Source: Diphasiastrum complanatum
Lineage: Eukaryota; Streptophyta; Lycopodiopsida; Lycopodiales; Lycopodiaceae
Direction of reading: 5' to 3'
Length of the DNA: 64,000 bases
Assembly (NCBI GenBank): GCA_029204225.1
Contig: CM055108.1
Coordinates: 22,926,326 to 22,990,325 of the forward strand
Shown: piece after piece, positions 2,922 through 51,010 of the stretch
Numbering within the stretch: the first letter of the stretch is position 1
Layout of the letters: the number at the start of each line of letters is the position of its first letter
Position numbers and translations under genes: made by a program
The notes under the pieces: generated by a model
What the model was told of the DNA's origin: nothing
What the model saw: the letters and a program-made list of their open reading frames with translations, nothing else
Database searches by the model: none

Positions 2922-3088
2922 TGTTATGCTTCCATGGTTGTTAATGCTTTCCATTTAGTTGCTTTTGCTATGTTTTCTTTTTTCTACAAAAAATAACTCT
3001 GACATGGAAGCGCGTGATAAAGAGATCAGTCACTGAATTCCAACGAAGAACATAACAATGAAAGAACAGAACTACATTAATGGCCAAA

Positions 3089-3160
3089 ACCCCTATAGTG
3101 TCCAAGCTACTAGTCGTGAATAATAAGAATAAATGTTCCCCTATAGTGTCCAAGCTACTA
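3089..3160. repeat. Short direct duplication, 48-bp spacing
   Basis: CCCCTATAGTGTCCAAGCTA occurs twice, near 3090 and near 3138. Nothing else of note lies between the (TC) run and the G tract. Confidence 0.6.
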
Positions 3161-3409
3161 TGCATAAACAAAGAGAATAAGTGGCTTGGTTCTATGTGTG
3201 TATATTTTTAGACTACATTGCATGGCAAGTCCTAAATTTAAAATGGAATCCTCCCATTGGTCCAAGAAGTAAGAATGGGTCCCCTCCCTTTCAGGCTTAG
3301 ATTAAGTTGTCACCATATGGCAGAAGAGGTGGCATGGAACTGATGCCACGTAGGGGCAACTCAAGCCCATTTTTTGGGCTTAGAGACATTGCCTTGCATG
3401 TTGAGTTGT

Positions 3410-3410
<1 letters not shown>

Positions 3411-3440
<30 letters not shown>
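3411..3440. repeat. Homopolymer G30 tract
   Basis: Thirty consecutive G residues. Such a tract can form G-quadruplexes and is also a place where assembly length is unreliable. The flanks are GAGTTGTC on the left and CAACTTAACA on the right. Confidence 0.97.
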
Positions 3441-3442
<2 letters not shown>

Positions 3443-3960
3443 ACTTAACAAAATTGGAGCAATCAGATTATAGGGATTCAAATTGGCCAATTAGATTGTG
3501 GTTCTTCATTTGGCACTTGCTAGCCAAGTTTGAAAGGGGGGGTGGTCTATTACCCCCATCAAATCACTTGCCAAAATTGGGTGGGAAGTCAAAGGGCCAG
3601 GGACCTACCATTAGTTTAAAACCACCCTAAGTTAATATTGTGGCCGTTAGCATATTGAGTAAAATAGCCTATGGGCCAGCCCATTTCAATTCAAATAAAG
3701 AATATCATAAATAACAAGCTTCCGATGGGTGTAGCGTGTTAATTAGTATTTTGTTAGCTTAGAGAGGCCTTGAGGTAAGAGGACCAATAAGATATGCCCA
3801 CATAAGGGCCTTACTTTTGTTAAATTTCTATCCTCTCCATCCCTATCTCTCTGCTAATATAGATCCATTCACTTGCTACTTGTAAATAACCACATGCACA
3901 TACTCTACAAAAGTACATTTTGTTTTCTAATAGTCTAGAGAAATACAAAAGACTCGGTGA
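3441..3960. other. No gene seen
   Basis: Unique-looking AT-rich sequence without conserved coding motifs. Confidence 0.35.
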
Positions 3961-3964
3961 CAGT

Positions 3965-4105
3965 GTTTCCCTGATTGTTCAGACACCTTCGACTATTCGG
4001 TCATCCTTGATTATTCGGCCATCTTCGATTGTTTGGCATCCTCGATAGTTCAACCATCTCAGACCATCTGACCAGATTTGATTATTCGGCCATCCTCAAA
4101 CAATC
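3965..4105. repeat. Degenerate tandem array of about 20-bp units
   Basis: Variants of CTTCGATTATTCGGCCAT are strung together at 3988-4110 (for example GACTATTCGGTCATC, GATTATTCGGCCATC, GATTGTTTGGCATCC, GATTATTCGGCCATCC). Spacing is close to 20 bp and divergence is high, suggesting an old array. Confidence 0.65.
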
Positions 4106-5413
4106 GGCCGTAATCCGCAGATCAACAAGTACATTAAATCACACCCGAAAAAAATCTCCAACTGAATCAGATATTGTCCGAAGGCGACTATGAACAACAC
4201 GTAGTGCCTTAATCCTAATTGTAAAGTACAGATTAAGCATTCTTTTATTTAGTTATCCATGTGTATATATCCAGCAACTTATCAGTTGCTCGGTTAGACA
4301 AGAATAGATCGGTTAGCTCAATAATCTATCTATTCGATCAATTGAACATCCAGATCACAACACAATTGTTTTGTTCTTTCTCTCTTTTATTATAGAGTAT
4401 TGTTTTAGGAAGAACAAGACTCTGACTACATTCAGACTGTATCTATTCACGATTGAATAATCAATGTCCCAACAATCTAGGTCGTGTATATTGTGATTGA
4501 ATGCTCATTTTATTCATGTTTAGATTCTTTCTTGCTTGCAGATAAACTCATTTGTAGATTAAATTGTCTTTTATGACTGATAATCTGAGTCGATTGTGAC
4601 GCTCTAATCCCCACACCTAATATGCTTCTACAAAGCTAAATCTAAAACCAATCTAATTTGTGCATGGCTATGGAATCAATTGTATTGAACCAATGACTTT
4701 GAAGCCGTGATCAAGTAGGGTAGACTTCAAACTATTTGAAGTCGGTTTGAATACGATAGACGTGGTTGCATGCACCGAGGATTTTCTGCTCACTTCTCTC
4801 TATTGCAACATTCACGCATGTTTGAACTTAAGTCCACAGTTGTCTCTTGAGTGAATACTATTTTCATTTAAAGATTCTTCTTGCACGCTTATTGATCGTT
4901 GATCTAGGGTCAGATGAAACCTACTTTGGTCCTATGCATATGTCTGCCCATTTGGTACCTGTAGGAATCACAGAACTCAAACAACCGAACTATTCGAAGA
5001 ACGACTACATCGGGCTTCCGACTGATCTTCATCCATATGGATCAGAACTAAAAAGTAACTAATCCTATTGTTTTTCACTTTCAAATGTTAAGTTCGAATT
5101 ATTTGAAGATCATTGAATACTTGGCCATCTTCAATAACTTCCACGAATTGGCATTTTGAACAAGTCTGCAAAAATACACTATATTTCCAACAATCTGCAG
5201 AAATGAACTAATTGTCGCATAATTTTCCTTTTTCCAACAAAATGCGACAGTAACTACTCGTCAAGTATTTCAAAGAAGTAAACCTTTTGTCGTCTTTTTC
5301 GCATTTTTTCAAAATGTGGCAAAACAGTCACTTCAACAAACGAACTATTTTCAACACCTTCGGATTTTTTGCTAAAATGCTAAGTGAGAGAAAAATGCGA
5401 AGAGTGCCCATTT
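4106..5413. other. No gene seen; possible old LTR relic
   Basis: There is no coding motif. A TATA-like GTGTATATATCC near 4261, followed by a pyrimidine-rich stretch and several ACTATTCGAA-like words near 4710-5110, could be the remains of an LTR. I found no partner copy. Confidence 0.25.
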
Positions 5414-7313: not shown

Positions 7314-8591
7314 ATGGCAACCTCAATTGGAGTCATGTTGGAAGCCAACGATAGGCTTACCTCAAGTAACTATTCATTATGGAAAGTGAGGATGGAGTCA
7401 CTTCTTGAGATGAATGATGTTTTGGATATTGTTGTAGGTTTGGAGGAGAGACCAGCAACACAACAAGATCAATTGAGGTATGACAAGAGGGCCAAGAAGG
7501 CTCTACACATGATAAAGATGAATGTTACCAATGAACTTCTCAAGGAAGTTGGTAAGTGCACATCATCTTTGGAAGCTTGGAATTCATTGAAGAAGCTTTA
7601 TGAATCCAAGTCTACTTCTAGAGTGTTGACTCTAAGAAGGCAAATCTTTTCTTGTTTGCAAAAGAATGAAGAAAGTCCAAGTACTTTTGTTTTGAGAATG
7701 AAAGCATTGAATGATGAGTTAGCTTGCATAGATGAAAGCATTAAGGAAGGAGAGCTTATTCAAGTGATTCTTAATGGCTTGTTGGATGCTCATGCTAACA
7801 TTGTTCAAAGTATTGCTATTCAAAAGACTTTGCCAAGTTTGATGGATCTTCAAGAGATCTTGATCAATGAGGAATATAGGCTTCAAGCAAGAGGTGGATC
7901 TACATCAACACTTCAAGAGGATGCTATGTTCACAAAGGGCAAATTCAAGGGCAAAACCAAAAGCAAGTGGTCTAAAGGGCAAGATCAAGTGGATGCCTCT
8001 TCAAGTGGCAAAAAGAAGGATAGATCAAAGCTCAAGTGCTTCTATTGTGGCATCAAAGGACACTTTGCAAGTGAGTGCTACAAGAAGAAGAGAGATCAAG
8101 GAGACAAGCAAGGTAATCTTACTCTTGATGAGGATGGTTTGGATGTGCAAGATGCAAATGATGATGCTTTTGTGATGTCTTCATGTATGCTTGTTAATGA
8201 TGGAGATCTAGATCCTTGGTGGATTGATAATGGAGCAAGTTCACACATGACCTTTCACAAAGAGTACTTCACTTCTTTGTTGGCATATGGAGATGACAAA
8301 AGGGTGATCTACACGGCCAATGATGGTGAGTGTGCAATCAAAGGGATTGGCACAATTCTTATTTCTCTCTCTACAAATAGGAATGTATATTTGGAGGATG
8401 TCTTGTTTATTCCATCTATTACCAAGAATTTGCTTAGTGTGAGTCAAATGCTAAGTAAGGGCCTCAAGGTGGAGTTTGATGGAGATGCTTGTTTGATCAA
8501 AAGGAAGGATGTCTTGATTGGAAAAGGTAAAAGACAAGGGAAGTTGGTATCAGAGCCAAGTACAAGGGCTTTAATCATTGATCAAATCTAA
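7314..8591 (+). CDS. Copia-1 gag-protease polyprotein (truncated by stop)
   Basis: The 425-residue ORF starts MATSIGVMLEANDRL and has the copia gag (UBN2) fold signature SSNYSLWKVRMESLL near its N-terminus. A CCHC zinc knuckle CFYCGIKGHFASEC spans residues 242-255. The retropepsin motif WWIDNGASSHMT has D305-N-G; the middle residue, usually S or T, is N. The frame then reads into foreign sequence: at 8545-8556 it crosses a copy of TGGTATCAGAGC and stops at 8591. In a normal element this frame would continue into integrase, as copia-2 shows. The captor sequence splits protease from integrase, so only a Gag-PR product can be made from this frame. Confidence 0.9.
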   Translation: MATSIGVMLEANDRLTSSNYSLWKVRMESLLEMNDVLDIVVGLEERPATQQDQLRYDKRAKKALHMIKMNVTNELLKEVGKCTSSLEAWNSLKKLYESKSTSRVLTLRRQIFSCLQKNEESPSTFVLRMKALNDELACIDESIKEGELIQVILNGLLDAHANIVQSIAIQKTLPSLMDLQEILINEEYRLQARGGSTSTLQEDAMFTKGKFKGKTKSKWSKGQDQVDASSSGKKKDRSKLKCFYCGIKGHFASECYKKKRDQGDKQGNLTLDEDGLDVQDANDDAFVMSSCMLVNDGDLDPWWIDNGASSHMTFHKEYFTSLLAYGDDKRVIYTANDGECAIKGIGTILISLSTNRNVYLEDVLFIPSITKNLLSVSQMLSKGLKVEFDGDACLIKRKDVLIGKGKRQGKLVSEPSTRALIIDQI

Positions 8592-40981: not shown

Positions 40982-42100
40982 GTGTCATAATGGCTAAAAG
41001 CATCGCAAGTTTTTTTGGATCGGTGGCTATACCATAGCGGCTAATGACATGCCCTAATAGTACACCATAGGGTACTCCAAATATACATTTGTTGGCATGT
41101 AGGGCTATACAAGTAGTAGCACCTTTTGAAAACATTTTTCAAGTATTGCTAAATGTTCTTTAACACAAGATGCTCCACATAAATCATCCATAAAGATTTT
41201 CAAGTTTTTGTTTAGGATATCTTAAAAATTTTCATTCATAAACCTTTGATATGTGTCTAGAGCGTTTGATAAACCGAAAGGCATAACGTGATAGGCGAAC
41301 ACTCCAAAGGTGGTGGTGAAAGTGGTCTTTAGCTTATCTTCCTCAGCAATGGCTATTTGGTTATATCCAGCAAAACAGTCCATGAAAGAAGAGATTTCTC
41401 TTCCTGCCAATTCTTCTAGCACTTGGTCTATAAAAGACAACGGATAATAATCCTTTCTCGTCTGCTTGTTTAGTTGCTTATAGTCGACACAGACTCAAAT
41501 TTGAGTAGAATTCTTTTTTGGTCATGGGACTATCGGTGAACACCATTCAGTATTGTCCACATAAAAGATCAATCCAACTCCTTTCAATCGTTCTGATTCC
41601 TTCAATACTCCTTCTTTCATGTGAAATGGCAACCTTTGTTCTTTCTGCCTAATGGGTTTAGCATCATGTTTCAGGGTTATAGTATGATTCACTAAATCTG
41701 GAGGTATTCCTTTCAGATCTAAATAATTCCAAGCAAATATGTGCCAATATTTCTTGCACAAATTCTCATAGATTTTCTTGTCTTTTGGGCTTAGGTGAGC
41801 ACCTACTTTGATGTTCATCCTCTGTTCCAAGGTTTATAAGACATATATCAAGTTCTCTAACCTTGGGAGGTGGTTCATATGGGGTATTCCACTCGAAGCC
41901 TAGTACATCCCTCATTTCTACATCTTCATCTATTGATGTTTCCAAATTGGTATCACTATCAATGAGTTCTTTCCATTCAGTTGATGCAATTGGCGCTCTC
42001 TCAGATTGAGGTACTTCTGGATATCCATCAACCACTACTCTTTCTTTTCCCCTTCCGAAAACTAATACTCTAGCTAGAATATCAACTATGTAGTTACTTA
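40982..42100 (-). pseudogene. Gypsy-2 reverse transcriptase (truncated)
   Basis: Minus-strand frames join as an acidic connector (WKELIDSDTNLETSIDEDVE), then KVGAHLSPKDKKIYENLCKKY and DLKGIPPDLVNHTITL. The RT core follows: FMDCFAGYNQIAIAEEDKLKTTF, AYHVMPFGLSNALDTYQRFMN and the catalytic block KIFMDDLCG (FMDD at about 41183-41194), then ISRYGIATDPKKLAML. It ends at 40982 where the gypsy-1 LTR begins, so RNase H and integrase are missing. Frameshifts lie at about 41820 and 41130; stops at about 41500 and 41220. Confidence 0.88.
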
Positions 42101-42600
42101 GTCAAAGCTAGGGACGCCCTAGTAGGATAGAAGATCTCCTACTACCGGGATGCGTTTTCATAACATAGAAATCGATGTAGGTAGTCTTTCCTGCTATAGT
42201 AATAGGAGTATGTTTCAATTCCCCATCAGGTTTTATAACCGAATTATTGGCCAACTTCAATGCTGTTAGAGTGACAGGTTCAAGTTCAAACCCTAAGCGA
42301 TCGGCCAATTCTGAACTAAGGATGTTGACTGGGGATCTCGCATCTACTATTGCTTCTACAATGACTAATCCATCAATGGTCACATCCACTTTTGAAAAGG
42401 CTCGATCTAAGTTACTTGCACCTATATGTCCAATAATAGGTGGTTCTAATGTTTGTAGTGCAGATGGTTTCATCACGTGCTTTGATTTTCTTCGTACTAA
42501 TGGCGATAACCTAAGAAGTTGCCATAAGTTGACTTCCACACTTAGGTTATTTAATGCTTCTTGCAAGTCTTGGTTTTCCATACTCTTCCCTAGATATATT
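42101..42600 (-). pseudogene. Gypsy-2 retropepsin
   Basis: ORF 42108-42581 carries VDVTIDGLVIVEAIVDARSPVNILSSELADRLGF and ends SSILLGRP. This is the retropepsin layout with the DSG/DTG triad changed to D-A-R, so the protease is probably inactive. A linker (42600-43080) with several stops joins it to gag. Confidence 0.8.
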
Positions 42601-43099
42601 TCTTTTTTGATACGGTGCGTTCTAGCTCTGTTCTTAATGGATCTAGGTAATGATCTGGTTTTGGCAAAAAAAATTATGAGTGAGATTCTTGAAACTCTTC
42701 TCCCTATCAGTTCATGTATCTGTTCTTCATCTGTGAGTTTATGATCAGCATATTGTTCTTGTTGTTCAAGTTATATTTTCTCCAAGGGAAGTTTCTAAGG
42801 TGCTTTAGATGGTGATGTTTTTAACTCCTTCGAGGGTTCCTTGAAAGAAATTTTTTGCGACTGCTTTTGTGTTTTTCCACTTCTGTCTAATATTTCCTTT
42901 CCTTGCCCACTACGGGTCAATACCAGCACTTCTTCTTTTTCAAGTAATTCAATGTCGATCAAATTGATGAGAGGTCTCTCTTCCTCTACTTTGGTTTTCT
43001 CTTTTTCTGAATGAGTGTATCTAGTGTCTCTCTAAAGAAACATCACTGGTCTTGAAGGTCCTGCTCCATTGTTTTCAAAAGGTCTGTGATTGATGTGGC

Positions 43100-44427
43100 C
43101 TAGTATATGGTTTCCAATGTTCTATCCTCTAGATGTCTTGTTTTCTTACAATACGTACAGACCATATTTGGACAGTTTTTATTGAGGTGATTGCCATGAC
43201 AATGTCGGCATACTAGCGGTGGGAGCATTTCTGTATTACGTCTTTGTCCAATTATATTCTGTTGTTGCGTAAGAAAATTCACGTTCGAAGCTAGGGTAGA
43301 TATATTCTCATTCATCACAACCATGTATCCTTTCAACATGGCATTCACATCATCAATCCCTGAAATTAGATCCAATGCTCTCATATCCCCTCTCTACAGG
43401 TACATTTCTAGCGGTTGTTGCTTGGATTTGCATTCCCTATGAGTTCCTTGGTTGGTTTCTAGAAAGATTATTTCTACTTTGAACTGGTTGGTACAGTTCT
43501 ATAGTCTGTATTGGCACATAGGTGTTGTAAGAGTTTCTTCCTGGAACTGGGTTTGCTTCCCACATATCGCTCTTAAGGTTCAAACTATTTATGGCCTATG
43601 ATATTTTAGATGCTTGGGCAATAGCAATTTGTGCATTTTTTGCTACTATTGCTTTTGCTATTGCTTCATCTATCGACTGGAGATTGCTCTGCCTTACTAT
43701 CAACTGTAGGTCATTCTTCAATCCTTGCAGGAAGAAAGTCAATAGTAATTGCGACAGTAGTGCTACAATAGCTCTCCTAATTGCCTCAAAAGTTCAGTCA
43801 GTCTTCTCAAAAATTGTCTAACTCCCTATCCCTCTCCTTGTTGAAGGGATGTCAAAGTGAACAACAAACCATCAGTAGTTCTATGTGGGGCAAACTCAAT
43901 CAGGAATAATCTATGAAAGGTCTCTATATCTTCAATGGATTCTCCAAGTAGGCTGTAATACCATTTCCTTGCAGTTCCAGTCAAGGTAATGGTAAAGTGC
44001 ATCATAATATGGTATGGATTTGTTATGCGGTTTATCAGACAAGCGGTCCAAAATGCATTGATGTGATCTTCAGCACTCTCGTAAGGGGCTCCATGAAACT
44101 CAAGGGTTGTGCTTCTCAACTTTGGTAGGGGCTCTATATCGGCAGGGATTACTATAGGTTCAGTGACTCAAGCAGCCAGTGTTTTCGGTTGCGAATACTT
44201 GGGGATAATCATGATATCAGGTATTTGAAATATGTCTCTTTTTGGAGTGATCTTGCAGTACTAGATTTCTTTGGACTAGGCGGTGTTTTAGCTTCTGATA
44301 AACTTTTACTACCAGTACTCTTTGGGGATCGAGACAACGTTTTAGATATGATTTTGGTAGTAATTGAGGTTCTGCTTATGAGGAAATATTTTGGTGAGAG
44401 TGTTACCTTCTCAATTCGTCGTCGCAA
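43100..44427 (-). pseudogene. Gypsy-2 gag
   Basis: The N-terminal region is basic and S/K-rich (SRSPKSTGSKSL). Then comes a Retrotrans_gag domain: TLEFHGAPYESAEDHINAF, HFTITLTGTARKWYYSLLG, DIETFHRLFLIEFAPHR. After broken frames (43450-43825) a double knuckle appears (CRHCHGNHLNKNCPNMVCTYCKKTRHLED). It encodes a Ty3/gypsy nucleocapsid and is interrupted by stops and shifts. Confidence 0.82.
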
Positions 44428-44653
44428 TGGAGGACCTATGTTGGTGGTTCTGGAATAGTTTGATGATCATTTATCATGAAGGGTTCTATTAAAACCATAC
44501 AATACTTGAACCTCATGGATAATGAGGATTTCACACACTGTAAATAGTCACAAAAGTCGACTACAGTTGAAGTATGGATAATCCACACAATCAAGGTTAG
44601 AAGATGAAGCCATACTTATCTCTAGTTCATATCAGAAGGTTGCATCCAACAAA
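44428..44653 (-). other. Gypsy-2 leader
   Basis: Short untranslated stretch between primer site and gag. No feature seen. Confidence 0.45.
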
Positions 44654-44673
44654 TTTCACGTCAGGTTCACCAA
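44654..44673 (-). other. Gypsy-2 primer-binding site (candidate)
   Basis: On the minus strand TTGGTGAACCTGACGTGAA follows the LTR end CCCTAACA. The position is right for a primer site; I do not assign the tRNA. Confidence 0.55.
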
Positions 44674-45704
44674 TGTTAGGGATTTTTCCAATAGGGGATT
44701 GGTCCCACCAGAAAGCCCCAGCGAGTGAAAGGGCCCACACTGCCCTTACGCGAGTGACTCGGGTCTATTACCACTTCCAATCCTGGGGGTCATCCTAATC
44801 ACCCCATACTCCCCAATCAATGAGAGTTTTCTAGGCTCTCAGGAGTATGATTGCAAGGAGATCGATTATTGAGTCCTCAAAGTTCTTCTCAATGTGGTAG
44901 AGTGAGAGAATGATTTCCTGTCATTCTATGAGGTTGGTAGAATATAAAACGTCCTTGAAACCAAGTACCAACTGAACCTTTAGACATGACATGTGATGAT
45001 TCAGAGTAGAAAAATGGTTACATCTCTTGTTTGTTCATAGTCAAGGATTATTGACATGTATATTTTGCTATACTTAATCTGATAATAATTCTGTTGTTCT
45101 GTGTTCAGATTTGTGTTGATATTGTTGAATTCACACGTGTGGGACGCCCTACACATGTACTTTTGATCTCCTAAGCCCAATAATACCATAAAGATCAGAC
45201 TAGCATTGATTGACAATAGGAAAGCTGATCATACAAGAAATATTATTGTGTTACAAGCAAGATCTGTCAACAAAACATAAAATTAAGTGCAATAAACGCC
45301 TCAACTCAGGTAGAGAGAGAAAATGAAAGTACAAAACTCAAGTAGAGAGAGAGGGCACAAAGAGCTTAGTCTCCAAATTTGCATTACACACAAATTTCAT
45401 CATTATCTCAATGAGAGTACATCACATATATATAGATCCATGGACTCTCCTCCTACTTTGAGTTGAATTGGAGGTATGAATCCACCTCTCAAGCTATCTA
45501 GACTTATTCAAGCCACCTCACTATGTCTAATTGTGCCACCTAGTCTTTTCATGCATTAAATGTGGCATGCAAAGTACAAATGGCAATTCCTATGGTAGCG
45601 CGAGTTTCTACTTCTACCTACCTTGAATATTTTATTCTAAGATGGGCTTTACTAACCCAAAACAACTCAATTCATCTTTGGCATTTTTAGGACCCCTACT
45701 AACA
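44674..45704 (-). repeat. 5' LTR of gypsy-2 (about 1031 bp)
   Basis: On the minus strand it starts TGTTAGTAGGGGTCC and ends AAATCCCTAACA, a matching inverted terminus. TATATATA near 45428 can serve as TATA box. It contains one CACACGTGTG palindrome (45132-45141). The outer flank is ACATT (45705-45709); no right-hand partner survives to test a duplication. Confidence 0.75.
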
Positions 45705-45709
45705 ACATT

Positions 45710-45956
45710 AGATAGATTTTTCCAATAATTTGACAGATATTGCTATGTTTTTCTTCATTCTATCTGACTCTCTTGTTGCTCAATCTGGTAATCCATTCTT
45801 AGCAAATTATTATTAGTCTAGCTGTTGATGACTAGTATTTAGTCTTGCCTTTCGTGACTAATTCGCGATTGATTAGCAATCAAGCTCAGTCTAGCTCTGA
45901 GTAAGGCTTCTAATATTCAACACTCAGTCTGGACATATATTATTGCTACCACTCAG
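45710..45956. other. Interval between gypsy-2 LTR and the next exon
   Basis: It ends with a pyrimidine-rich stretch and a CACTCAG acceptor at 45950-45956, so it is most likely the 3' part of an intron whose upstream exon was cut off by the gypsy-2 insertion. Confidence 0.4.
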
Positions 45957-46507
45957 GACTTCGAGAAAGACGGCAAAACCAGAGTACTAAAAGTTGATGT
46001 ATGGAAAAAGCTTGATAGTATGATTGCTATTTTAAGAAAAGAAAAATACTCTGATATTGATAAGAAAGTTGTCCAAAGGACTTGTGTCGAGTTTGTTATT
46101 GCAATATCAAAAGCATGGGGAGAGGATCACATCACTCATTACATGGTTAGTATAAAATTTTCAAAATGCTTTCAAATTTTCATATATATTTCAATCCAAA
46201 CATAAGACTAACATTATGATTTTGACATATGCAGCACATACTAAGAGATCATACAATATTTTTTGCAAATACATATGGAAGCTTGAGTGTATGGTCATCA
46301 CAAGGGATGGAGAAGTCACACTGGCAAGCACGAGCGTCATTTCATCGAAATACACAACATGGAGGAACCAATGAAAAACGAAACTACATTTGTCAATTGT
46401 TTCAGTGGTTCTACCGCAGAGTTCAGATTCGACATATAACAAAGTCCACACAATACAACAAGTTTAGAAAAGCATGCAAGTTCATACAAGAAGAGAAAAT
46501 TAGATGA
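45957..46507 (+). CDS. 3' two exons of unrecognised transposon-like gene
   Basis: Exon 45957-46145 (after CACTCAG) encodes DFEKDGKTRVLKVDVW ... VVQRTCVEFVIAISKAWGEDHITHYM and ends at a GTTAGT donor. Exon 46235-46507 (after ATATGCAG) continues in frame as HILRDHTIFFANTYGSLSVW, SQGMEKSHWQARASFHRN, THGG-like TQHGG, FQWFYRRVQIR, and stops at 46507. The frame is intact. The block with SQGMEKSH...HGG resembles, from memory, the C-terminal part of proteins annotated as transposase-like in other eukaryotes, but I cannot name the family. The 5' part is missing, apparently removed by gypsy-2. It converges with the minus-strand gene that ends at 46649. Confidence 0.5.
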
Positions 46508-46648
46508 CTATTGAGTAGAAGATCATCATTGCTGAGTAGAAGATCATCATGACATGTTCAGAATTGCTTTGCAAATTCATTGAACAAGAGAGGAGAAATA
46601 CCCAATGTAAATGTATTGATTGTATTATACCAAAATACAAAGTGTCAA

Positions 46649-47514
46649 CTATTCATCATCAGATCTTGTATCAGATTCTATGGTAGTATTGTCATGAAGA
46701 AATTCTCTGCTAGCGTATGCATCTAATAGATGTGCATTATCCTTATTTTCACTAAGCTCAATATAAGTGGAATACAATGAATAATGGGAGCTCCTTAAAT
46801 TAACATTCCCATCAGTAAAGCCTAAAATGTTCAAAACATAAGATGTTTTGACAAGAATGATCTTATTTGTCTTAACAAATTTATGTCCTCCTAGATAAAA
46901 TGATAAAGCTTTAACTGCCATTATAAGACTCTCCCCGACTGGGCTCAGCTTGGAATGAGAAATACAGATCTCATTCTTCAAGAAATGCCTAAGATAGTGG
47001 CCCAGTCCACTGTCCCTCTGGAACGAGGATGCGTGTTGTCTGAAACCATCTCGTCTCCAGTAAAATCATCTATTATGAGAGCATCCTGCAATAGGAAATA
47101 TGCTAACAAAAACACATTCAGTGATTGAAAACATTCAAATGCAAGGAAGATTAAACACTTACACATTCTTCATCATCAGCAGCAACTAGGATGATCAAAA
47201 TAATGACCATGTACTGAAGTGGAATCACTAGTGAAGTGCATTAATGATGGACGAGGGAAGCCCATCTAGGATTAAAATGCCATGAATTCTTCATCGTATG
47301 GTCTGTCTCGCCCATCCTCAGCTATATTTGATAAAGTCTTATTCAGACATTCTTCACCGGTCATAAGACCCTCCTCATCATCAAAATCAATACCAGCAAC
47401 AAGGTCATCTGTCTCAAAATCTACAAAGTTGAAGAATTCGATCAAGGAGAACAATGACAGATTGTCACAGTGTTTGACAAGTGGATTCACACCAGCAACA
47501 AAGTATCTGCTCAT
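46649..47514 (-). CDS. Minus-strand multi-exon gene, 3' exons (hypothetical)
   Basis: The last exon (47095 to 46649) follows a CCTATTGCAG acceptor. It reads DALIIDDFTGDEMVSD...RGTVDW, then in a shifted frame HYLRHFLKNEICISH, SPVGESLIMAVKALSFYLGGHKF, NVNLRSSHYSLYSTYIELSE and DNTTIESDTRSDDE to a stop at 46649. A short candidate exon (47185-47163) ends at a GTAAGT donor and reads AADDEEC in frame. Another open block, 47514-47272, is acidic (ETDDLVAGIDFDDEEGLMTGEE). The protein is unknown to me. The frame shift near 47000 means it is either decayed or spliced differently. Confidence 0.42.
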
Positions 47515-48277
47515 ACCTTATCATACGAAGTAAGTTATATAAAATGCTTCTTGTTGTTTTATGCATTAACATTGGCATTGTCAATGAAAATAGTTCTCAG
47601 AATTGCAACTAAAGGTATTTCAATCTTATTTTGCAGTGACCACTGGAGTTTAAACCTGATCTCTATTAAGAGATCTGTAAATAATATTATTAAATGTTTT
47701 TGTGTCAAGATGAATTCGACGAGAAATACGCATAAGGATGTGGATATATACATTCCATATCTAAGTAAATATATTCCTACAAACGTTTCCCATTACGTCG
47801 ACTGGCAAATCGTCAGCTTGGAGGTAAACTCTGTCTTTCTTAATAGCATTTTGAAATCAATATTCTAATGAAATATTTTCAATCTAATTCATTTTGTTTC
47901 ACAATTGATTTCTTGTGTGCTGAATTATTTTGCAGTCACCCCAGCAAAATGATTCATTCAGCTGTGGGTGGTACACATTGTACAATGCCAAGTTGTTTTT
48001 TGAGTGGTTCAACCTTCAACAAGATGTTGATATTTCTAAGGTAATAAATTATGTTTATTCTTATTTTGGAATCACGAATAGTTTTCTATTGTGGTGATGT
48101 TATTGGCCATTACTAATACATGAATGTTCTATTTTGCAGTTTACACTTTTTGAGTACACATCAAGCCAGGTGTACAGATTTAGACAAGAAATTATCCTGA
48201 GTATACTGGCTAGGGCAAGGCTTCAGCCTCCCGTTATTGATGATGGTGCAAAGGATGATGTGGTTGTACTAAATTAA
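47470..48277 (+). CDS. Ulp1/C48-type cysteine protease module, four exons
   Basis: Exon A (upstream limit unclear; open back to 47282) ends at 47529 with ATKYLLIPYHT and a GTAAGT donor. Exon B 47637-47823 begins with DHWSLNLISIKRS, exon C 47936-48040 is SPQQNDSFSCGWYTLYNAKL, and exon D 48140-48277 ends AKDDVVVLN and TAA. All acceptors are TTTTGCAG or TTTGCAG and all junctions keep the frame. The order HW, about 100 residues, then QQNDSFSCG is the His and Gln/Cys layout of Ulp1/SENP SUMO proteases. The catalytic Asp expected about 17 residues after His (YYDSL-like) is replaced by a Cys-rich KCFC. Plant MULE and CACTA transposons often carry Ulp1-like genes, so a transposon origin is likely. 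Confidence 0.68.
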
Positions 48278-48645
48278 GACAGAAAAAATATAGATAACAT
48301 AGAACAAAAATACATGTATAGACTTCATAGAAAAATATACATTGATATATTAAATACTGCTCTAGTTTATGAATTTGGGAGCACAAAATGCATGTACAGA
48401 TGCCCAACTTGGGCTTTCATTTATTGAATGAAAGGGTGTATACACAAATTTTTACTAAAGTTTATTTGAAACTATTGTTTTCCCACAATGGAGATTGTTG
48501 TAGGTAGATCTTTGCAGCACGTTATCAGCTCCTGTCTTTTTTGCATATGTGACATGGCAAATATTAGTGAATGTGCAATTGCAAATGATGACATTTTCTA
48601 TTATTTTGTTCTATTTTGAAATGGCAATAAACATAAAGTACTTAC
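48278..48645. other. 3' flank of the protease gene, no gene seen
   Basis: AT-rich. In the minus direction it reads as intron following the GTAAGT donor at 48645-48640. Confidence 0.4.
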
Positions 48646-49109
48646 GAGTCTTCCGTTGATGATAATCTGAAATATGTTGGTAGATTGGTTTGTAATAACA
48701 TGAGCTCTGTTATGATAAAATCAAGCTTCCAGTGCTCTTCCACCTCAACCATAGTCAAATATTCCTCATTGTAGATAATGCTTATCTCCATTCGGTTTGT
48801 GTGACCATCTAGTTCAAAGTCTTGATCCAGTGGTAGCCATGTACCTTCAATTTTCTTGTATCTTTGGTAGCTAAATGTGAGACTGAGCATTTTCTTTTCG
48901 ATATGATAACGAAAGATCATTGCGGACTTTTTAATCTTGCATTCTATGTCATTGCTTGTTTTACTATCCCAGCCTTGATCCATGAGATCTGACAAAGTGA
49001 TGACTAGGCACTCTTCACACGTGTGAAGGCCTGTTGGATAGTACACAGCTCGTGGATGTACTTGATCTATAAAGAGATTAACCAAATCAATAACAAGTTG
49101 ATGTGACAT
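48646..49109 (-). CDS. Hypothetical minus-strand exon, about 155 codons
   Basis: From an ATG at 49109 (MSHQLVIDLVNLF) the frame is open to GAAGACTC and a perfect donor GTAAGT (48645-48640), beyond which a stop follows. Features seen: HTCEECLVITLSDLMDQGW, FRYHIEKKMLSLTFSYQRY, EVEEHWKLDFIITELMLLQ. I recognise no family. It is the candidate 5' exon of the minus-strand gene ending at 46649, with the plus-strand protease exons inside its intron. It begins only 27 bp from a copia LTR at 49136 and may be cut by it. Confidence 0.4.
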
Positions 49110-49135
49110 TGGCAAATTCTAGTTTTGTTGATATT

Positions 49136-50156
49136 TTCACATTTGTCTTGAGTTTTGATGAATGAAATACATTTGTAAGTTAATGTGCATTACTCTCTGT
49201 AGACAGGCCATACAGGTACTGTCCTCCACACATGTGAGGCCACCCATCCATGTGTTTGATCATTTGATCCATTGCTTAAATCATAGTGTAAAGCATCTAG
49301 ATTAAGATCTAACATCTAGAACTTGATAGATATTTGGATTAAGCAATCAATAACTCTTAATGATTGATAGTACAATCAATGTTTGTCCTTTTTCTTTGAA
49401 AATTGACAAGCTTTGCATGCTAACATCTCTGATTGTTCAAGAATTTGAGAGCTAATTCAAGCAAAAAAGCAGTTAATCACTTTTCTTTACCTGTCTCTGA
49501 AAAGCGTTTGGATCAAAGTGGATAGAAACTGATTTTTCAGGTCAAAATAGAGATTGTACAGAATTCTGGAATTCCACACGTCTGAAAATCAGTGATTTTC
49601 AATCCCTTCTATTTCCTTGCTAGTTGGTCTAAAGATAGTGATGTTATAGCTTGATGAAAAGCTTATGAAGAGTACTTTCCATAAAAATTAATCCCAAATC
49701 AATCTGATGTGTCTATCAAGAGTAATGAGCTCTTAAAGAGGGTAGGGAGAGGTCCAAAATCTGAGTGACCACTTTTTGATTGGATTCAATCTTGCTTGAT
49801 TTTGAACTCATTGTTTTGAGCATCCTACACATGAGACTGAAGGTCAAGACTAAGTTTGATGTTATTGAACACCTTTGAGCCTTCTGAGCATCATTAGTGT
49901 TTTCTTTTGAAGCATCTAACATGTGTCAAAAGTAGAATTCAAACCTTCTAAGTGTCTCAATTCAACTTGAGTGTCTGATCTAGATTATCTTATTTTGTGG
50001 AATATTTGAGATCTATCCCAAATACAGTTGCAAGTTTTTCACATAGGAAGCTAGCACATCCTTGAAAATACCTATAGTGAAAGAGAGTAGCAACATTAGT
50101 CTGATTGGAACAAGCTCAAACATATTATTATCCAATAACTAAGAAGTCTTCACATT
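49136..50156 (+). repeat. Copia-6 LTR remnant and leader
   Basis: TGTTGATATTTTCACATTTG followed by TTTTGATGAAT parallels the start of the LTR at 61627. Words such as GGCCATACAGGTACTGTCC...CACACATGTGAGGCC (around 49206-49242) parallel other LTRs in the window. No TGGTATCAGAGC is present before gag, so the end of the LTR and the primer site have been deleted. The small minus frame at 49716-49922 is not a gene. Confidence 0.6.
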
Positions 50157-50870
50157 ATGGCATCTGTGAGAGGATATCTCCTAGAAGCAGATGAAAGACT
50201 AAGTACCTCTAATTACTCAATTTGGAAGGTTAGAATGGAGTCTATTTTGATACTCCAGGATGTTATGGACATAGTACTTGGTAAGGAGGAGGAGCCTCAA
50301 GCACAGCTTGAAATACCAAAGTACAAGAAGAGAGCTAGAATGGCTCTACATTTCATTAAGATGAATGTATCTAATGAAATTCTAAGAGAAATAGGATCTT
50401 GCACCACTGCCAAAGATGCTTGGGATGCACTTAAGTCAATCTATGAAGCTAAGAACACTTCTAGAATACTCACTCTTAGGAATCAGATTTTCCAAAGTTC
50501 TCAATGAAGTGAGGAGAGTGCATCAAACTATGTTCTGAGAGTAAAAGATCTTCATAGGGAGCTTGCTTGTGTTGGTGTCACAATCAATCAAGATGAGCTA
50601 GTACAAGTCATTCTAAATGGCTTAATAGATGACTATGAGAATCTTGTTCAATCCTTTGCCATTAAGGAGGAGTTGCCTAATTTAGAAACTCTCCAAGGAA
50701 TTCTCATCTCTGAAGAAGCTAGACAAAGTTATAAACTTTCTAGGATGAACAAACTCGAGCATATTGGAAGTAACAAAGCCCTCTTTGTCAAGGACAAGCA
50801 TAAAGGAAGGAACAAGAACCAGTTTTCTCAATCATGCACAAACTGGAAATCAATAGTAGAATATTTTTTA
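50157..50870 (+). pseudogene. Copia-6 gag (truncated)
   Basis: MASVRGYLLEADERLSTSNY, IWKVRMESILILQDVMDIV and KMNVSNEILREIGSCTTAKDAWDALKSIYEAKN are copia gag. A TGA at 50505-50507 follows FQSSQ; the same frame then continues RVKDLHRELACVGVTINQDELVQVILNGL to EEARQSYKLSRMNK and KDKHKGRNKN. It ends before the zinc knuckle, about 65 bp ahead of a long TC run, so a deletion removed pol. Confidence 0.9.

Positions 50871-50924: not shown

Positions 50925-50936
<12 letters not shown>

Positions 50937-51008
<72 letters not shown>
50937..51008. repeat. (TC)36 microsatellite
   Basis: Uninterrupted TC run of 72 bp at the broken end of the copia-6 gag. The frame running through it is an artefact. Confidence 0.97.

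Positions 51009-51010
<2 letters not shown>

Follow-up and report, generated by a model that had tools for sequence, protein, structure and literature searches.

A high-copy DNA transposon of Diphasiastrum complanatum encodes a histone H3–Ulp1 fusion protein and inserts without target-site duplication

We analyzed a 64,000-nucleotide stretch of the genome of the lycopod Diphasiastrum complanatum (assembly GCA_029204225.1, contig CM055108.1, positions 22,926,326 to 22,990,325), hereafter the window, and found that its positions 45897–48998 are a dead fragment of a high-copy DNA transposon with terminal inverted repeats (TIRs), cut at both ends and internally deleted. Fuller copies elsewhere in the genome carry four genes, A to D; protein A resembles a RAG1/CACTA-type DDE transposase, and protein C joins a histone H3 fold to a Ulp1-type protease in one reading frame. 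The element inserts without a target-site duplication (TSD), as seen at 15 empty sites of three insertions. We regard the transposon nature and anatomy of the element as practically beyond doubt, and C is very probably a maintained part of it. The best explanation of the whole, a dead fragment of a TIR transposon whose protein C acts as an anti-silencing chromatin factor, stands at about an even chance.

The window holds a truncated, internally deleted copy

Window positions 45957–49125 were used as a query against the same genome (1.745 Gb, 5,176 contigs), and 41 matches were obtained with the best 40 of 6,492 candidates scored. The matches form two blocks, 45897–47441 and 47442–48998, most rows of which are approximately 93–96% identical to copies elsewhere in the genome, and the window itself contains only one copy. 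In the copies elsewhere, conserved DNA goes on to the left of 45897 in all 16 rows and to the right of 48998 in 11 of 12 rows (two rows represent one place). Contig C46 matches window 42001–50842 at 98.4–98.9% identity and holds 2,425 bp between the two blocks that are absent from the window at 47441|47442, comprising the start of gene B, a divergent intergenic region and the H3 half of gene C. Because copies elsewhere extend past both ends and C46 has 2,425 bp more, the window copy is truncated on both sides and internally deleted, and a complete three-gene element in the window is ruled out. The C46 version of 42001–50842, with the 2,425 bp retained, probably derives from the other haplotype or from a recent duplication. 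The parts of the window copy are as follows.

45897–48998 (no strand): TIR transposon fragment that lacks both termini and, at 47441/47442, 2,425 bp (block matches, C46 comparison).
45957–46145 (+): penultimate exon of the transposase-like gene A, with homology from 45897 (open frame to a GT donor; 88.5% identical to protein A residues 410–496).
46235–46507 (+): last exon of gene A, with HILRDH as H(4)H, the candidate catalytic E of QGMEKSH 20 residues on, then HGG (94.6% identical to protein A; motif also in the 35%-identical A of the sister family).
46652–47065 (−): C-terminal exon of gene B, frame disturbed near the exon start (open reading frame 46649–47065; homologous frames in other copies).
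47275–47441 (−): part of an upstream exon of gene B, cut by the deletion (the frame runs on past 47441 in C46 and L046 toward the start MASSSSSSRES).
47441–47442 (no strand): deletion junction, 2,425 bp missing (comparison with C46).
47442–47529 (+): last 88 bases only of gene C exon 1, the H3 domain and linker being deleted (the same exon in L015 is 983 bp and starts with the histone H3 domain).
47637–47823 (+): gene C exon 2, Ulp1 domain, in which DHW and VDW provide the candidate catalytic His and Asp (frames, Pfam, comparison with L015).
47936–48040 (+): gene C exon 3, Ulp1 PQQNDSFSCGWY, where the window copy retains the candidate catalytic Gln and Cys (frames, Pfam).
48140–48277 (+): gene C exon 4 with the stop codon (frames).
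48642–48998 (−): gene D fragment; the frame past 48998 is flank (D kept in the sister family, E=1e-18).

A sequence-only reading of the window, which had described these pieces as a three-gene cluster with exons intact in decayed surroundings, was borne out in part: the cluster is an incomplete fragment. Its in-frame exons on both strands do exist, their splicing being inferred from the frames and GT..AG signals, and its two-exon protein with SQGMEKSH..HGG lies at 45957–46145 and 46235–46507. The joined exons of its Ulp1-like protease indeed match Pfam PF02902 (E=1.2e-7), and the domain proved to be the C-terminal half of the H3 fusion rather than a separate gene. Likewise, the minus-strand frames that it had assigned to one multi-exon protein are present and are parts of two genes, B (46652–47441) and D (48642–48998); the frame 48642–49118 is real, and is element sequence only as far as 48998. 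Among the five pieces scanned with Pfam, none showed a retroelement domain, in agreement with that reading.

Fuller copies share inverted termini and a four-gene layout

Fuller copies measure 8.1–9.5 kb between 35-bp inverted termini, 5'-CATTAG..CTAATG-3', which were read in L036, L046, L047 and L048. The termini of L036 (C21:17014000-17023999) are perfect over 35 bp (CATTAGAGGAGTTCTCAATATCAAAAAGACCCTTT) and lie 8.2 kb apart, L046 (9,451 bp) and L047 (8,091 bp) are both arranged as in the window, and L048 is shorter through deletion. With at most 3 mismatches allowed, a 31-base TIR word had 2,446 genomic matches, 1,185 on one strand and 1,261 on the other, and the reversed control had none. 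Few of the 100 TIR-word places listed make close pairs, and therefore many ends are solitary, diverged or rearranged. TIR matches also cluster at C1:65.1–66.7 Mb and C1:95–99.9 Mb in runs of equal orientation, perhaps by tandem or inverted duplication.

In the window's orientation, the gene order is A(+), B(−), C(+), D(−). In the C46 copy, the 910-bp region that separates the divergent genes B and C contains CACGTG eight times (mononucleotide shuffles: mean 0.17, maximum 2); L046 has five, all in the B–C region, and L047 none. Searches of PDB sequences with B and D led nowhere, and the Pfam scan of A, B, C and D pieces detected no MULE domain. The left arm of L036 is inverted relative to other copies, such that a 1.85-kb inner segment (2994–4848) is flipped compared with L046, L047, C12 and C46, with both termini intact.

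The element inserts without target-site duplication

To find empty sites, we searched the genome with the joined flanks of six insertions for which both ends were known. Three of the insertions gave contiguous empty sites, 80 places in all (8 for L046, 32 for L048 and 40 for L036), and 15 of the 80 were fetched and aligned (four, six and five, respectively). All 15 presented the two flanks side by side, with no base duplicated or lost at the junction, and differed only by scattered substitutions and single-base gaps away from it. For the insertions of L047, C17:17.86 Mb and C1:47.86 Mb, no contiguous empty site was present among the 40 scored candidates per search, these being filled by other flanks.

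The three insertion sites are TTGTCA|TCATAT, ACTGC|ATTTTT and GCATT|TTTGG. The TCA/TCA at L046 hinted at a 3-bp TSD, which was ruled out since the empty sites already contain TCATCA; among the other three flank pairs, one or none shares 3 bp by eye. No target motif is common to 25 distinct end flanks. MULEs make TSDs of 8–11 bp, and none was seen for this element. The element thus inserts without TSD, and we infer that the target is cut with a 0-bp stagger, both strands at the same place. Insertion of this kind by a RAG1/CACTA-like transposase is unusual and testable, considering that related enzymes give duplications of 2–5 bp (PMC12730594).

The 2,446 TIR-word matches, the 8–9.5 kb elements with both TIRs and the precise empty sites support the suggestion, made in the sequence-only reading, of an undescribed DNA transposon, and the existence of TIR elements and precise empty sites identifies the insertion as mobile. 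Repeated copies with shared terminal repeats, which that reading had named as a check, were found; the TSDs it had also named were absent where empty sites could be compared. The pieces are multi-copy rather than single-copy host genes, and Pfam matched no MULE, CACTA or hAT transposase, as expected of the transposase outside the classic plant families that had been envisaged.

Protein A resembles a DDE transposase

Protein A presents, in order, candidate D residues in KLDES and GDLK, then HPCLYC, HILRDH and the E of QGMEKSH, 20 residues past the last H. With its C(2)C and H(4)H ahead of the last E, it looks like a DDE transposase of the RAG1/CACTA type; in RAG1, the second zinc-binding His likewise lies 20 residues before the catalytic Glu. 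One decayed copy (L065) no longer has the second candidate D. In Pfam, the central 586 aa of A matched nothing above the cut-off, and among PDB sequences its 398-aa core matched nothing at E<=10. When the genome was searched with 442 aa of A, the best 95 of 19,862 candidates showed identities of 76–99%, many without stops.

We estimated the ratio of nonsynonymous to synonymous substitution rates (dN/dS), with shifted frames as controls. In eight copies including diverged ones, dN/dS of A was 0.49 (0.37–0.67), compared with 0.70 and 0.84 in the shifted frames, and in the three most diverged copies it was 0.38 (0.27–0.56), compared with 0.65 and 0.91.

Protein C is a histone H3–Ulp1 fusion

The 2,425 bp lost from the window contain the start of gene C, MDRRKQTRRDFF.., leading to a histone fold. 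A fragment of one copy matched Pfam Histone at E=2e-27, and the best matches among PDB sequences were H3 (E=4e-21). In L015, four exons separated by three GT..AG introns join into one 470-aa frame, in which Pfam placed Histone at 25–123 (8.2e-26) and Peptidase_C48 at 316–433 (3.9e-7). This single frame rules out Ulp1 as a separate passenger gene, in contrast to the sequence-only reading. The Ulp1 (C48) domain presents His-Asp-Gln-Cys as candidate catalytic residues; DHW, VDW and PQQNDSFSCGWY are all in the window, and the candidate Cys is kept in the window copy and other copies. Compared with canonical H3, loop 1 of the H3 fold is one residue longer and the tail is approximately ten residues shorter. 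We also considered host H3 or CENH3 copies, which were ruled out since 13 full-length canonical-type H3 matches at 97–99% form a separate group.

Gene C is kept in many copies. Its whole first exon is open in six more fetched copies (L066–L071) and in L088 of an older subfamily, and in 22 of 150 scored rows, some of them probably haplotig duplicates, the frame is open for at least 326 aa and the matched part has no stop. A pattern for the tail and start of gene C, at no more than 2 mismatches, identified 946 genomic starts (controls, 4), and among the 100 listed, codon 9 begins with GA in 95 and AA in 5.

From the first Met, the tail of C reads MDRRKQTRRDF, compared with canonical MARTKQTARKS, so that R2, K4, Q5, T6 and R8 are unchanged and D takes the place of K9. 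We read the tail in 14 copies, two tail-less copies being left out of the count: Lys4 was present in 14 of 14, and position 9 was Asp in 13 and Tyr in one. The majority tail has no other Lys, leaving K14, K18, K23, K27, K36 and K37 without counterpart.

Before all dN/dS counts, L016, L012, L023, L025, L039, L005 and L006 were dropped as duplicates or the same places. In 16 copies of gene C, the H3 part gave 0.31 (0.19–0.51), compared with 0.73 (0.43–1.37) and 0.74 (0.47–1.21) in the shifted frames, and the end of exon 1, leading to Ulp1, gave 0.38 (0.25–0.66), compared with 0.68 and 0.80. Ulp1 exon 2 gave 0.42 in 11 copies, a value that has no shifted-frame control.

A sister family also carries an H3-like gene

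A canonical H3 query returned the 13 full-length matches, some partial H3 exons at 79–93%, and approximately 130 loci at 44–57%. Three of the last group were fetched: L088 is an older subfamily of the same H3–Ulp1 gene, and L087 and L089 are another repeat, for which 39 matches besides the query were found at 90–96% with the best 40 of 469 candidates scored. Around L087 (C10:2471260-2476960; L091, L087 and L090) lies a homologue of A with 34.9% identity over 281 aa (E=8e-65), in which SCIYC, HIFYAH and QGMEKSH are present and the E lies 20 residues past the second H, as in the first family. This sister family, family 2, also has a homologue of D (E=1e-18) and a weak homologue of B (E=0.007), with the middle genes inverted compared with family 1.

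The H3-like gene of family 2 starts MARTKQTARDPR (MARTKQTARD), followed by a long proline-rich insert and an H3 core at the end. One tail of this family was read as protein; among the copies read, Lys4 is kept and Lys9 is replaced by Asp in both families. The pattern M-A-R-T-K-Q-T-A-R-(K/N/D/E) matched the genome 134 times (control, 0), and among 100 of the 134 listed, 81 end in GA (Asp/Glu) and 19 in AA, 13 of these 19 being the canonical-type H3 matches by eye. Since both families have an H3-like gene, the association of transposase and H3 predates their split.

Two more sequence types code for M-A-R-T-K-Q-T-A-R-(D/E) with codons unlike family 2, e.g., at C5:68343817, C8:16486017, C11:53490238 and C1:21316407; two places of the first type (C1:40570870 and C17:25721131) end in AA instead. 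In L040 (C12:10984000-10993999), approximately 7364–8103 (−), we observed what is left of another Ulp1 gene, diverged but with its exons arranged in the same way (QSSQQVDSVSCGWYTICNAKQFF), which possibly represents a third family; next to it, a copia insertion interrupts a family 1 copy in its left part.

Discussion

We propose that A would cut both target strands at the same place and that C would enter nucleosomes as an H3 variant. With Asp at position 9 and Lys4 kept, C could not carry Lys9 methylation, and its protease would remove SUMO from nearby silencing proteins; the element's DNA may then stay accessible and expressed, and silencing would be escaped. This anti-silencing role of C, predicted from its sequence, is put forward tentatively, at somewhat below an even chance. 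The fuller claim, that a transposon lineage evolved its own H3 variant, which retains the Lys4 end and has an acidic residue in place of Lys9, that one branch fused it to a SUMO protease for silencing-resistant chromatin, and that the lineage is a new one of TSD-less DNA transposons, is possible and leans toward doubtful.

If the proposal is true, this would be the first plant mobile element to fight silencing with its own nucleosome part. VANC proteins and TET/JBP act on DNA methylation and SET domains modify histones; a histone unable to take K9 methylation would be a different strategy. It would also offer a natural K9 mutant histone for the study of heterochromatin, and might account for one family reaching roughly a thousand copies.

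Several observations weigh against the proposal. L015, the source of the 470-aa frame, has Tyr for the candidate catalytic Cys. For position 9, both tail patterns used in the genome counts admit only K, N, D or E and would overlook any other residue. For the H3 part, the true-frame and shifted-frame intervals of the 16 copies overlap slightly (0.43–0.51), and in the seven intact copies the value of 0.42 (0.22–0.80) is not separable from the shifted frames (0.67 and 0.58). The linker of the 16 copies gave 0.91 in the true frame and lower values, 0.49 and 0.39, in the shifted frames, because of which the method must be considered noisy. In family 2, the one H3 gene read has a stop codon between tail and core, and no Ulp1 was seen in the stretch read. 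The two D residues of A are candidates only, the family 2 sequence stopping just before the second. Gene A shows no clear constraint in 5–6 copies and none in 21 recent copies (1.00 and 0.85); its constraint is seen only once diverged copies are included, which fits a family whose recent copies decay. Lastly, no relatives were found among 268 + 6 candidate stretches in viral contigs, by which a viral origin is also ruled out.

An alternative, which we consider less likely, is that C serves transposition or targeting: its H3 part would pair with H4 or chaperones and bring the transposase to replicating or nucleosomal DNA, and Ulp1 would mature or release the complex. C is kept alongside the transposase in many copies, an H3-like gene stands beside the transposase in the sister family too, TSD-less insertion is unusual in itself, and Ginger1 transposases are joined to Ulp1/OTU domains for which the authors suggest a role in transposition (PMC2836005). 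However, this explanation by itself does not account for the replacement of Lys9 by Asp with Lys4 kept in both families, and the 25 end flanks have no target motif.

The element may also belong to a lineage already named, with only its cargo new. The CMCT group comprises EnSpm/CACTA, Mirage, Chapaev, Transib, Plavaka, ESTA and Lanisha (Kojima 2025, PMC12730594), and is marked by C(2)C and H(3-4)H motifs that follow the second D and precede the last E, by 5'-CA..TG-3' termini and by TSDs of 2–5 bp. The C(2)C and H(4)H of our element (HPCLYC, HILRDH and QGMEKSH; SCIYC, HIFYAH and QGMEKSH in family 2) and its CATTAG..CTAATG termini agree with these marks, and CMCT members likewise pick up chromatin-modifying genes such as TET/JBP (PMC12730594). 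In contrast, its TSD is 0 bp in 15 of 15 empty sites, A has no Pfam match to any transposase or PDB sequence match to RAG1/Transib, and its cargo is H3–Ulp1. Because of the missing TSD, we regard the element as no more than a candidate member of CMCT. EnSpm/CACTA proper differs further, with 5'-CAC..GTG-3' termini and a 3-bp TSD (PMC12730594), compared with CAT..ATG and no TSD here. The most likely named lineage is Lanisha (CACTA-like, Repbase Reports 2020), compared by description only. The authors of Lanisha reportedly work on moss genomes. Lanisha is included by Kojima in the group that shares the C(2)C, the H(3-4)H before the last E and the CA..TG termini, but CMCT lineages are given TSDs of 2–5 bp (PMC12730594) and our element has none; we judge membership in an already named lineage, Lanisha foremost, improbable.

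Still less probable is that H3–Ulp1 is a passenger captured by transduplication, which does nothing for the element and was amplified by hitch-hiking. Plant transposons commonly capture genes (PMC13317346), most scored copies are damaged, and recent copies of gene A are unconstrained. Nevertheless, 16 copies show constraint on the H3 part and the part that follows, not on the linker; there are approximately 950 starts of gene C; and H3-like genes with the same change at position 9 occur in both families, between which the transposases share only 35% identity. The view that these exons belong to ordinary host genes or are frames open by chance, as their shortness and the reading of splicing from sequence alone might suggest, is already refuted by hundreds to thousands of copies with shared termini and precise empty sites, and its probability is close to nil.

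The nearest published systems each share some features with our element. A hAT element of the fungus Pyrenophora tritici-repentis carries the H3-like gene H3L, with 26 H3L genes (Manning et al. 2013, PMC3538342); it too is a TIR DNA transposon with a divergent H3-like gene between its ends and multiple copies, but it has a hAT transposase, a stand-alone H3L with tail insertions, no Ulp1 fusion mentioned in the portion available, and copies that number in the tens, not the hundreds. The presence of an H3 gene both in this fungal element and in our two deeply diverged families suggests that the association is recurrent or very old. The VANDAL/KIU MULEs of Arabidopsis encode the anti-silencing factor VANC, and elements with KIU are reported to make their relatives hypomethylated (PMC13317346). 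They resemble our element as plant DNA transposons with a multi-gene layout and Ulp1 fused to a protein of their own, and differ in having a MULE transposase and VANC–Ulp1 in place of H3–Ulp1; the word histone is absent from the main text of that source. Ginger1 is a TIR DNA transposon with a Ulp1 domain, fused in its case to a Gypsy-integrase-like transposase, with no histone mentioned in the portion available (PMC2836005). The Spy group of PHIS transposons moves by cut-and-paste without TSD, as our element does, but with an AAATTT target and a Harbinger-like transposase (PMC4482050), whereas we found no motif in 25 flanks and no such Pfam match. An H3 gene, Ulp1 and TSD-less insertion each have a transposon precedent. 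In mainly open-access literature, with few subscription papers or preprints, we found no H3–Ulp1 fusion in a transposon and no histone-carrying transposon beyond the fungal hAT case.

Flanking features in the window

Two Gag-like frames flank the fragment, at 43826–44167 (−) and 50139–50723 (+). We take them to be parts of a gypsy and a copia element, respectively, which agrees with the sequence-only reading. A (CT)n run of approximately 85 bp at 50925–51009 breaks the copia-like frame.

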